Below, piece after piece: positions 5,243-14,637 of a stretch of 32,346 bases of DNA. The notes beneath the pieces were generated by a model that saw only the letters and a list, made by a program, of their open reading frames with translations, had not been told where the DNA came from and did not search any database. Both the position numbers and the translations under genes were made by a program. Positions within the stretch are counted from its first letter, which is position 1. Every line of letters starts with the position of its first letter. The DNA is from Verrucomicrobiales bacterium (GTDB lineage: Bacteria > Verrucomicrobiota > Verrucomicrobiia > Limisphaerales > UBA9464), in contig JAIXUV010000193.1 of assembly GCA_027483345.1 (NCBI GenBank), forward strand, positions 1-32,346. The letters are read 5' to 3'.

Positions 5243-5395
5243 ATCCGCCCCGAAAAGTTGCGACGGAACTCGTACGCGAGTCCACCCCGGAGTTTCCCGC
5301 CGCAGACGGCGGCCGAGCATCGCCTCCGCAGCAACACGCGCCTGTCGGCGTTTGAAGGTGTCGGGCCCGCACGGATCCCCTTCAATCGGCACGTC

Positions 5396-6370
5396 ATGCC
5401 GGAGCCCTATCCCCTCACCTCCCGGGAACGCACCCGCTGGATCCTCGACCGTCGTCAGGGCATCGCGCGGGACGCCGGCCTGTCCCCGGGACGGGTCTCC
5501 CACAGCCTGAGGGAAACCGAGCCCGACGGTGTGGGCGGTTTCGCCTCGATTCTCACCCTCTTCCTGACGAACCGCGAGTGCCCCTGGCGTTGCCTGATGT
5601 GCGATCTCTGGCGGCACACCCTTGAACGCCCACTCCGGCCTGGGGACGTCCTCAGGCAGATCGACGACGCCCTGGCGGCGGATTCCGCGTCGGAACCGGA
5701 GCGGCCCGACTGGCTCAAGCTCTACAACGCCGGCTCGTTCTTCGATTCCGGAGCCATTCCCCGAGAGGACCTCGACGGAATCGCCCGTCGCGCCTCGTCC
5801 TTCCGGCGTCTGGTCGTGGAATGCCATCCGACGCTCGTCGGTCCACGCATCCTCCCCTTCCGGGACGCCTTGGGCGGTGCGACACGGCTTGAGGTTGCGA
5901 TGGGATTGGAGACGGCCCATCCGGAGGTTCTCGACCGGCTCAACAAGGGATTCGGGCTGCCGGAATTCGCCAGCGCCTGCGGACTCCTGAAACGCGAAGG
6001 CATCGACGTCCGTGTTTTCGTGCTGCTCCGGCCACCCTTCATGGACGAGCCGACGGGTCTCGAATGGGCGGTCCTTTCGACCCGGTATGCCTTCGAGTGT
6101 GGGGCGGACGTTGTGACGTTGATCCCGACCCGCGATGGAAACGGCGCGATGGAGGCGCTGCGGGCGTCCGGAGACTACGCACCGCCGCAGCTAGCGTCGC
6201 TTGAGACGGCGCTGCGCGCGGGTTTGGAGCTGCGGAGGGGACGGGTCTTCGCCGACACGTGGGACCTTGGACGGTTCTGCGACAACGCCAAAGAAGTGGA
6301 GGAATCGAAGGCCAGGCTTGAACGCTGGAACCGGCTCCAGGTCGCGGATCCGCCGGAACCCGGGCATTGA
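5396..6370 (+). CDS. Radical SAM protein, COG1244/TIGR01210 (RaSEA-like) family
   Basis: A 324-residue radical SAM enzyme. The cluster motif CX3CX2C is C62, C66 and C69 (ECPWRCLMCDLW), which would bind a 4Fe-4S cluster and S-adenosylmethionine. Downstream features such as an ECHP segment, a VAMGLETAHPEVLDRLNKGF-type strand and an LLRPPFMDE segment fit the COG1244/TIGR01210 family, which contains the archaeal archaeosine synthase partner RaSEA. That assignment is from remembered motif style, so the family is moderately sure and the substrate is unknown. The start at 5396 is chosen because the residues before it (from 5258) look like translated leader with no conservation features. It is divergent from gspE (179-bp gap) and lies 38 bp upstream of the Phe/Tyr leader peptide, so a transcript could run from it into the DAHP synthase gene. 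Confidence 0.75.
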   Translation: MPEPYPLTSRERTRWILDRRQGIARDAGLSPGRVSHSLRETEPDGVGGFASILTLFLTNRECPWRCLMCDLWRHTLERPLRPGDVLRQIDDALAADSASEPERPDWLKLYNAGSFFDSGAIPREDLDGIARRASSFRRLVVECHPTLVGPRILPFRDALGGATRLEVAMGLETAHPEVLDRLNKGFGLPEFASACGLLKREGIDVRVFVLLRPPFMDEPTGLEWAVLSTRYAFECGADVVTLIPTRDGNGAMEALRASGDYAPPQLASLETALRAGLELRRGRVFADTWDLGRFCDNAKEVEESKARLERWNRLQVADPPEPGH

Positions 6371-6408
6371 CGGGACCCTTCACTTGCGGTTTTTTCCCAT
6401 CACGTCAC

Positions 6409-6486
6409 ATGAACTTCCGCAGCAGATACTTTTTTGGATACGGATACTTTTACGGGATCCGGCTCTGCGGCCGTGTCATGGAATGA
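6409..6486 (+). CDS. Phe/Tyr-rich attenuator leader peptide
   Basis: A 25-codon open frame starting ATG at 6409 and ending TGA at 6484-6486. Eight of its 25 residues are Phe or Tyr: F3, Y7, F8, F9, Y11, Y13, F14 and Y15, with the run YFFGYGYFY at residues 7-15 (6427-6453). It sits directly ahead of DAHP synthase, the first enzyme of Phe/Tyr/Trp synthesis, and is followed by two mutually exclusive hairpins. This is the layout of a classical amino-acid attenuator such as pheA or pheST leaders. No clear ribosome binding site precedes the ATG, which is also true of many genes in this window. A TTGACG hexamer at 6367-6372 could be a -35 box, but no good -10 follows. Function is inferred from composition, position and RNA pairing. 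Confidence 0.75.
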   Translation: MNFRSRYFFGYGYFYGIRLCGRVME

Positions 6487-6527
6487 CCGTTTCCTGAACA
6501 CCAAAAGCCGCAGGCCACCGCCTGCGG
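6464..6527 (+). promoter_or_regulatory. Transcription attenuator: competing antiterminator and terminator-like hairpins
   Basis: The terminator-like stem is CCGCAGGC (6508-6515) with GCCTGCGG (6520-6527), 8 perfect pairs around a 4-base loop. The same left arm (6507-6514) can instead pair with TCTGCGGC at 6464-6471 inside the leader peptide, giving 7 Watson-Crick pairs plus one G-U. A ribosome stalled on the Phe/Tyr codons (6427-6453) would leave 6464-6471 mostly free and favour the antiterminator. A ribosome reaching the stop at 6484 would cover it and favour the downstream hairpin. The weak point is the tail: only TTCCC follows the hairpin rather than a T run, so termination may be inefficient or need a factor. 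Confidence 0.6.
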
Positions 6528-6574
6528 TTCCCATCAGGACCGGAGGCGATGAAGCGCGGAACACCACGCACCTC

Positions 6575-7591
6575 ATGATCATCGTACTCAAGCCCCAGAC
6601 CCGCCGCACCGACGAGACCGCCGTCCTCAAGGAGATCCGCCGACTCGGCTACAAGCCGCACGTGATGCGCGGGGTATCCCGCACCGTCATCGGCGCCATC
6701 GGCGACGAGGCCAGTCAGCCTTCCCTGGAATCCCTGCGCGCCTGGCCGCAGGTGGAATCCGTCACGCCGGTCCAGAAGCGCTTCAAGCTGGTCAGCCGCG
6801 AGGCCCATCCCGCAAACAGCACCATCCGCGTCGGCAAGGACGTCGTGATCGGCGGCCCCGAGGTGGTCGTGATGGCAGGTCCATGCTCGGTGGAAGGCGA
6901 GAAGCAGCTGATGACCACGGCCGAGGCGGTGGCCAAGGCCGGAGCCAAGGTCCTGCGCGGCGGGGCGTTCAAGCCGCGGACCTCGCCCTACGAGTTCCAA
7001 GGTCTCGGCGAGAAAGGCCTGAAGCTCCTCGCCAAGGCCCGGAAGGCCACCGGACTGGCCGTCATCACCGAACTGCTCTCCGAAGACCATGTCGAGCTGG
7101 TGGCGGAATACGCCGACATCCTCCAGATCGGCGCCCGCAACGCACAGAACTTCCAGCTGCTGATCGCCGCGGCGAAGACCGGACTGCCGATCATGCTCAA
7201 GCGCGGCTTGAGCATGAAGATCGAGGAATGGCTGCTGGCCGGCGAGTACGTGCTCGCCAACGGCAACCGGAACGTCCTGTTCTGCGAGCGCGGAATCCGG
7301 ACTTTCGAAACCTACACCCGGAACACGCTGGACCTCTCGGCGGTTCCCATCGTGAAGAAGGAATCCCACCTGCCGGTGGTCATCGATCCCAGCCAGGGCG
7401 GCGGACGCGCCGACCTCGTGTCGGCGATGTGCAAGGGGGCCGTGGCGATGGGCGCGGACGCGCTCCTCGTCGAGGTGCATCCGAATCCGAAGGAAGCCTG
7501 GAGCGACGGCGCCCAACAGCTCTCGCTAGAAGGCTTCGCGAGGCTGATGGAGGAGATCCGGCCGCTGGTCCAGGCGGTGGGACGCCAGTAG
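6575..7591 (+). CDS. aroF: 3-deoxy-7-phosphoheptulonate (DAHP) synthase, type I-beta with N-terminal regulatory domain
   Basis: Condenses phosphoenolpyruvate and erythrose 4-phosphate to DAHP, the first step of the shikimate pathway, in the cytoplasm. Residues 1-75 form a ferredoxin-like regulatory domain of the Thermotoga maritima DAHP synthase kind, which senses Tyr/Phe. The TIM-barrel catalytic domain follows, with AGPCSVE at 101-107 (metal-ligand Cys104) and the substrate motif FKPRTSPYEFQG near 132-143; a second ligand region is IDPSQGGG. Length is 338 residues, normal for this subgroup. The start at 6575 (MIIVLKPQ) matches the family; the frame stays open upstream to 6434, but that stretch covers the leader and hairpins. 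Expression probably depends on the attenuator just upstream, so the enzyme would be controlled by both allostery and attenuation. It converges with fabH, 27 bp away. Confidence 0.95.
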   Translation: MIIVLKPQTRRTDETAVLKEIRRLGYKPHVMRGVSRTVIGAIGDEASQPSLESLRAWPQVESVTPVQKRFKLVSREAHPANSTIRVGKDVVIGGPEVVVMAGPCSVEGEKQLMTTAEAVAKAGAKVLRGGAFKPRTSPYEFQGLGEKGLKLLAKARKATGLAVITELLSEDHVELVAEYADILQIGARNAQNFQLLIAAAKTGLPIMLKRGLSMKIEEWLLAGEYVLANGNRNVLFCERGIRTFETYTRNTLDLSAVPIVKKESHLPVVIDPSQGGGRADLVSAMCKGAVAMGADALLVEVHPNPKEAWSDGAQQLSLEGFARLMEEIRPLVQAVGRQ

Positions 7592-14561: not shown

Positions 14562-14637
14562 TGGTGGAGCCGAGGAGATTCGAACTCCTGACCCCCACAA
14601 TGCCATTGTGGTGCTCTACCAACTGAGCTACGACCCC
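14562..14637 (-). tRNA. tRNA-Ala, anticodon GGC
   Basis: A 76-base cloverleaf with CCA encoded. The acceptor stem is GGGGTCG with CGGCTCC and carries the G3:U70 pair that identifies alanine tRNAs. The D arm is AGCTCAGTTGGTAGAGC, the anticodon stem is CCACA/TGTGG and the anticodon GGC is at 14604-14602. The T arm contains GTTCGAATC. It reads GCC and GCU codons, of which GCC is very common in this GC-rich DNA. Confidence 0.98.

Follow-up and report, generated by a model that had tools for sequence, protein, structure and literature searches.

Introduction

In Escherichia coli, the attenuators pheL-pheA and trpL switch between pairing of regions 2:3 and of regions 3:4, with stalling at codons for the product amino acid. 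An attenuator at aroR-aroF of Corynebacterium glutamicum was reportedly described by Neshat in 2014. According to passages of PMC11802643 and PMC4046766, aroR of C. glutamicum is a Phe-Tyr-Phe leader in front of a DAHP synthase gene, and limitation for Phe leads to read-through; passages of the former source (PMC11802643) also name pheL and trpL and state that Tyr is without effect. Upstream of aroF in Acholeplasma lies the uORFC-13-1 motif, for which part of PMC8632094 gives 24 unique sequences and a predicted Phe-dependent leader beside a terminator. Several leader peptides of Streptomyces lividans are transcribed leaderless, and some have no U-rich stretch 3′ of the hairpin, as set out in sections of PMC8079986. 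Term searches found no aroF in a survey of Actinobacteria (PMC1262725) or in a 50-genome survey (PMC11109978), the latter of which does not name Verrucomicrobia.

Here we describe a region directly upstream of a DAHP synthase gene in the window (the whole stretch of DNA that was analyzed, 32,346 nucleotides), which is very probably a ribosome-mediated transcription attenuator of that gene. With pheL and trpL it shares the 2:3 versus 3:4 switch and the codons for product amino acids; it differs from them in its target gene, as the leader here precedes the shared first step, in mixing codons for Phe, Tyr and, mostly, Trp, and in that 0 of 66 leaders are preceded by a 5-nt Shine-Dalgarno match. 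The position before the shared first step and the Trp codons in most leaders set it apart from leaders that read a single amino acid. Compared by description, as far as the cited passages go, aroR-aroF is alike in having a short aromatic leader peptide before a DAHP synthase gene and differs in belonging to another phylum, the leaders here having about six aromatic codons on average and, in 52 of 66, Trp. On the same footing, uORFC-13-1 is alike in its predicted leader beside a terminator upstream of a DAHP synthase gene and differs in phylum and in being a prediction only, while the S. lividans leaders, as described in those sections, are leaderless, as we predict ours to be, and some, like the window, miss a U-rich stretch; they differ in that the leaderless starts come from RNA-seq there and from promoter position alone here, and in the amino acids and genes concerned. 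As far as we have seen, the kind of attenuator is known and the phylum is new to it: an earlier reading made from the letters alone (the sequence-only reading) knew of no such leader in the phylum, and our own searches of an open-access library turned up no account of attenuation by a leader peptide in Verrucomicrobiota or Pedosphaera, nor did broader searches among the titles listed.

A Phe/Tyr-rich leader ORF precedes DAHP synthase in the window

The features of the locus, in order of position, are as follows.

5258–6370, + strand: radical-SAM-like upstream ORF, ending 38 nt before the leader
6367–6372, + strand: TTGACG, −35 box of the promoter predicted for the leader, overlapping the stop codon of the radical-SAM ORF
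6390–6395, + strand: position of the −10 box, TTTTTT, a poor match; 17-nt spacer, 13 nt before the ATG
6409–6486, + strand: leader peptide ORF of 25 codons, 8 of them Phe/Tyr; ATG 6409, TGA 6486
6417–6422, + strand: candidate region 1, CCGCAG, able to pair with CTGCGG at 6465–6470 in a fold of 6412–6474
6441–6461, + strand: hairpin P1 around the last Tyr/Phe codons (predicted fold)
6462–6471, + strand: region 2, predicted antiterminator strand, pairing with region 3
6506–6515, + strand: region 3, left arm of the terminator-like stem (predicted pairing)
6520–6529, + strand: region 4, right arm, followed by CCCATC where a U run is expected
6575–7591, + strand: type I-beta DAHP synthase with an N-terminal ferredoxin-like domain, by family and domain matches

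The leader peptide, MNFRSRYFFGYGYFYGIRLCGRVME, carries eight aromatic residues within codons 1–15 (F3, Y7, F8, F9, Y11, Y13, F14 and Y15), just as the sequence-only reading had counted them. This density is unique among the 526 small ORFs of the window (12–45 codons; ATG, GTG or TTG starts; both strands; the leader counted twice via an upstream TTG), the runner-up having five, and none of 100 dinucleotide shuffles of the leader's upstream region reached eight F/Y/W codons. The stem that had been placed at 6508–6527 is found there (6508–6515 with 6520–6527) and extends by two further pairs, A6506-T6529 and G6507-T6528, for −18.8 kcal/mol. The alternative pairing of its left arm with the leader is slightly longer than had been noted: 7 bp run uninterrupted between 6465–6471 and 6507–6513, and 2 bp continue between 6462–6463 and 6514–6515 across the bulged T6464. 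A U run is absent 3′ of the stem (CCTGCGG-TTCCCATC, of which the best 7 nt hold 3 T); with 3 T in 7, CCTGCGGTTCCCATC falls short of the U run of an intrinsic terminator, and a simple terminator scan at this stem gave its sole terminator-like match on the minus strand.

Matches to NF006421 and TIGR01361 identify the enzyme as DAHP synthase. The ferredoxin-like domain that the sequence-only reading had recognized in it corresponds to PF18152 at residues 1–68, and suggests that the enzyme may be under allosteric control as well. The upstream ORF at 5258–6370 has a sub-threshold match to TIGR01210 (RaSEA; 95 bits against a cut-off of 212).

The arrangement is conserved upstream of DAHP synthase genes of one order

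Searching genome contigs for the enzyme yielded 236 relatives, the best 80 of which were retained (the named set; 81 loci including the window). Among these 80 best relatives, 74 are labeled as Verrucomicrobiota or a member of that phylum, several being Limisphaerales or Pedosphaera. Most of the upstream regions follow a common plan: a TTGACG box, a short ORF packed with codons for Phe, Tyr and frequently Trp whose end is CTGCG-rich, and a stem with a T run; an example of the stem is GCCGCAGG...CCTGCGGC, with the T run directly after it. The best ORF before the terminator has a mean of 6.08 F/Y/W codons in 74 of the 81 loci, compared with 1.08 in shuffles, seven loci being left out of the count for short upstream sequence or lack of a hairpin. 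Phe occurs in all of 66 leaders, Tyr in 63 and Trp in 52.

We then surveyed the order, probably Limisphaerales. Of 293 genomes searched, 150 had the enzyme, and 60 loci from 49 families were taken: a single locus for each of 48 families plus 12 loci of the family to which the window belongs, among them one from G007, a close neighbor of the window. A locus passed in full if it had a stem, at least 4 T in 7 nt, an ORF that contains four or more aromatic codons and terminates close to the stem, and leader pairing of −8 kcal/mol or lower. With these criteria, which were fixed after the named loci had been viewed (36 of the 60 survey loci are identical with those) and which leave a free choice among ORFs and hairpins, 49 of the 60 DAHP synthase loci passed in full. 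When the U-run rule was waived, 52 passed, in 42 of the 49 families, and 8 loci and 7 families failed. The same test was passed in full by 1 of 2040 control windows, and by 14 of 2040 with the U run waived, these controls being flanks of named loci on both strands that overlap one another. Of the 24 loci unseen when the criteria were set, 22 passed in full, and dropping the U-run rule raised this to 23.

In the named set, 57 of 78 loci passed in full and 62 with the U run waived (3 of the 81 were excluded for short sequence); the 16 failures include six with a stem and three aromatic codons, and others without a stem or without a leader. Outside the order, one of 29 tested loci, drawn from 206 genomes with a match, passed all criteria. 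This locus, L158, belongs to a genome (G022) of the same phylum outside the class and has a leader with YFWFFYF and a terminator; it could reflect either a deeper origin of the element or convergence.

Upstream of other genes of aromatic amino acid synthesis, a scan with looser rules than the 60-locus test, with approximate gene starts taken from the edge of the family match and with at least two clipped loci (L235 and L264) read at the wrong offset, gave 0 of 30 for pheA and 3 of 30 (F/Y/W ≥4) or 2 of 30 (Trp ≥2) for trpE. The attenuator thus far appears specific to the DAHP synthase gene.

Several loci depart from the plan. The U run is also absent in L104 and L203. In L076, the leader and the GCCGCAGGC arm are kept, and a T run lies 3′ of a different hairpin (GCCCCGAA/TTCGGGGC) just downstream, an apparent replacement of the terminator. 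L046 and L051 keep the stem and T run upstream of DAHP synthase and have no aromatic leader ORF by our scan. The genome of the window also contains, on contig C285, a DAHP synthase-like PF00793 gene (L001), its best match to that family, which we take to resemble the I-alpha kind of DAHP synthase; read by eye, the region upstream of it has no leader with aromatic codons.

A covariance model (R1) built from alignment A2 was tried as evidence of distribution and rejected. Its best matches in the window's own genome outside the window lie after an ORF that is presumably ribosomal-protein-like and after another ORF, and in the phylum it matched 102 of 387 genomes at E ≤0.01. Because R1 behaves as a general terminator detector, the regions upstream of DAHP synthase genes were tested instead, as above.

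A promoter motif suggests a leaderless leader mRNA

In 63 of 66 loci, a TTGAC motif is located 25–75 nt (median 37) upstream of the leader's start codon, compared with 140 of 3300 (4%) shuffles. A −10 box of the form TAnnnT was found in 49 of the 66, with a 16-nt spacer in 44 of those 49. The full pattern of TTGAC, TAnnnT and a gap of 6–11 nt to the leader start is present in 41 loci and in 0 of 1980 shuffles; it is missing in the other 25, and in the window the gap is 13 nt and the −10 box is poor. Transcription from a promoter at this position would begin on the first codon of the leader or only a few bases away, and we predict from it that the leader mRNA is leaderless. A 5-nt Shine-Dalgarno match is absent before all 66 leaders, which is a weak argument because the enzyme genes seldom have one either (3 of 66).

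Competing pairings exceed chance and change in concert

The structural sets omit loci without a leader or terminator and, in part, near-duplicates, and hence describe loci that bear the element, how often it occurs being given by the 60-locus survey and the named set (A1, 65 sequences; A2, 60; permutation tests, 61; spacing, folding and nascent-RNA model, 60; promoter, 66). We compared each leader with 100 permutations in which codons were shuffled within that leader, so that the composition of the peptide was kept. The pairing of leader with stem (2:3) averages −14.0 kcal/mol, versus −9.85 (sd 0.28) in codon-permuted leaders (n = 61), and the P1 hairpin, scored as a hairpin ending 40–58 nt before the stem, averages 15.6 versus 11.3 (sd 0.44; n = 61). 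The best hairpin in the P1 region holds 3.1 aromatic codons on average. P1 is weak at the level of single loci (p ≤0.05 in 13 of 65), and in the window by itself the strongest hairpin is another than P1 (p 0.49).

In the RNAalifold consensus of A1, the terminator is the sole consensus stem, and for 6 of its 9 pairs at least one sequence has both partners replaced. The informative difference is a stem variant, CCGCAGG to CCGCCGG, that amounts to a change from A-U to C-G. For all nine leaders that precede a CCGCCGG stem, the best pairing partner is their own arm type; this holds for only 35 of 55 leaders with a CCGCAGG stem, and the leader of the one CCCCGAC stem (L055) does not pair best with its own arm. 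In a FastTree phylogeny of the enzyme, the CCGCCGG loci fall into one clade together with loci of the CCGCAGG type, which include the window. Parsimony would read this as one concerted change of stem and leader, or as two should a branch supported at 0.73 be correct.

Spacing fits a stalled ribosome and folding points to a kinetic switch

Region 2 lies a median 13 nt after the last aromatic codon, counted from the first base of that codon (n = 60; 11 in the window), and region 3 a median 24 nt after the stop codon (IQR 23–26, n = 60; 24 in the window). The spacings of the window are 11, 13 and 24 nt. Such distances are what is required if a stalled ribosome is to leave region 2 exposed and one at the stop codon is to occlude it. 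The ribosome footprint was assumed rather than fitted, as 18 nt ahead of the first base of the A-site codon and 12 nt beyond it.

We next modeled the nascent RNA with a transcript that ends before region 4, taking a mean probability above 0.5 as capture of region 3 by the leader. With the ribosome on some aromatic codon, region 3 is captured in 58 of 60 loci, versus 58% of permuted leaders (n = 297). A ribosome on the last of these codons allows capture in only 35 of 60 (permuted, 23%), and one that has reached the stop codon does so in 5 of 60 (permuted, 19%). The corresponding values for the window are 0.99, 0.94 and 0.12. When region 4 is included, equilibrium folding prefers 3:4 in 58 of 60 loci even if the ribosome occupies the last aromatic codon; in the window it does so for each of the stall positions modeled. 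Because equilibrium favors the terminator, the switch must be kinetic, set by the order of events. Classical attenuators likewise depend on the order of events.

Proposed mechanism

The features expected of an attenuator were found in this family: a short ORF rich in the product amino acids, exclusive 2:3 and 3:4 pairings beyond chance, the spacing, and a terminator with a U run in the relatives. The computations show a conserved leader, its codon bias, the competing pairings, their spacing, the U run of the relatives and the promoter motif, and from these we infer ribosome stalling and termination of transcription. RNA polymerase would start just before the leader start codon, with a ribosome trailing it through the leader. 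If charged Phe or Tyr tRNA (in relatives also Trp tRNA) were scarce, the ribosome would stall on the aromatic codons and leave region 2 free to pair with region 3, which would block 3:4 pairing and let transcription continue into the DAHP synthase gene. With charged tRNAs abundant, the ribosome would reach the stop codon and cover region 2, and regions 3 and 4 could then form the terminator.

Our confidence in attenuation is high for the family and moderate for the window's own copy. The sequence-only reading had already interpreted the region as attenuation by a stalling ribosome. The check it named, comparison upstream of the relatives' DAHP synthase genes, speaks for that interpretation: the aromatic leader codons and the competing pairing are conserved, leader and stem have changed together, and most relatives tested have the U run. 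That reading had not noted the Trp codons found in relatives, the hairpin that encloses the aromatic codons, or the motif of a promoter that probably makes the leader leaderless.

A fuller account, which we advance tentatively and hold at slightly under an even chance, is that an order-wide leaderless leader reads the charging of Phe, Tyr and Trp tRNAs and sets the first step of the shikimate pathway, that a codon-bearing hairpin abuts the antiterminator, that this is the first ribosome-mediated attenuator described in the phylum and a new RNA family, and that the lineage of the window lost the U run and kept the leader and its pairing. The result is a concrete regulatory RNA whose codons, pairings and promoter can be tested, and which is present in 42 of the 49 families sampled from one order. 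Should the mechanism operate as outlined, transcription would have to be coupled to translation in these bacteria, at least at DAHP synthase.

The window's own copy and alternative explanations

The sequence-only reading had left the termination step open for want of a T run, a caution that was right for the window and holds equally for L026 and L007, two loci of the same genus, which share with it the missing U run and the degenerate −10 box. Ten of the 11 other sampled loci of the window's family (L175–L185) pass the full test. Within the genus, 3 of 19 genomes have the I-beta enzyme, at 99–100% identity; among the remaining 16, 14 have only matches of 28–33% identity and two have none, and the I-beta DAHP synthase gene seems to have been lost or replaced in most of the genus. 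The 10 of 11 family loci that pass and the few genus genomes with a close enzyme make the loss of the U run look recent.

It is possible, though we lean against it, that the family is an attenuator and the copy in the window is decaying, its stem no longer stopping polymerase and the gene being expressed without control. The degenerate U run and −10 box, set against the passing family loci, and the scarcity of close enzyme matches in the genus agree with decay, as do differences in the leader among the three loci: Tyr codon 7 is altered in L026 (TAC to TGC at 6428) and Tyr codon 13 in L026 and L007 (TAC to TCC at 6446). However, neither the stem's paired bases nor the 7-bp core of the 2:3 pairing differ among the three genomes, although the stem loop varies in L007, and the spacing in the window is still typical; the three genomes are too close for this to be a strong test.

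Attenuation is the reading that we prefer for the window, where, as in its two closest genomes, loss of the U run may leave the terminator weak or in need of a helper such as Rho. A stronger version, in which the leader of this lineage acts without intrinsic termination, through Rho or through translation, we consider unlikely. It would account for the missing U run, and the window does contain a GGAGG (6542–6546) followed by a 9-codon ORF (6549–6578), the stop of which overlaps the DAHP synthase start as ATGA, so that translational coupling via this ORF is possible in the close genomes. The ORF is intact in the window, L026 and L007, but its conservation says little because 6530–6574 differs at only 0–1 of 45 positions among the three; moreover, by our scan, a small ORF with a Shine-Dalgarno-like site and an ATGA overlap occurs in only 2 of 81 upstream regions, those of the window and L026.

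That a short Phe/Tyr-rich ORF came by chance to lie beside the terminator of the upstream gene, as the radical-SAM ORF ending 38 nt before the leader and the minus-strand-only terminator match might suggest, is contradicted by the conservation, the permutation tests and the controls and is very improbable. Equally hard to credit is a riboswitch or T-box, in which the RNA would bind a metabolite or a tRNA directly: an element that acts in cis and has a terminator, ahead of a gene for amino acid synthesis, would suit it, but there is no Rfam match, conservation lies in the codons, the leader strand and the terminator, and RNAalifold finds the terminator stem alone (A1). The Rfam search (release 15, 4227 families, gathering score) covered the window and 18 of the 80 named relatives and gave no match apart from tRNAs; below threshold, 6340–6600 has only two matches, both weak. 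The window's only match at the gathering score is a tRNA gene at 14565–14637 on the minus strand.
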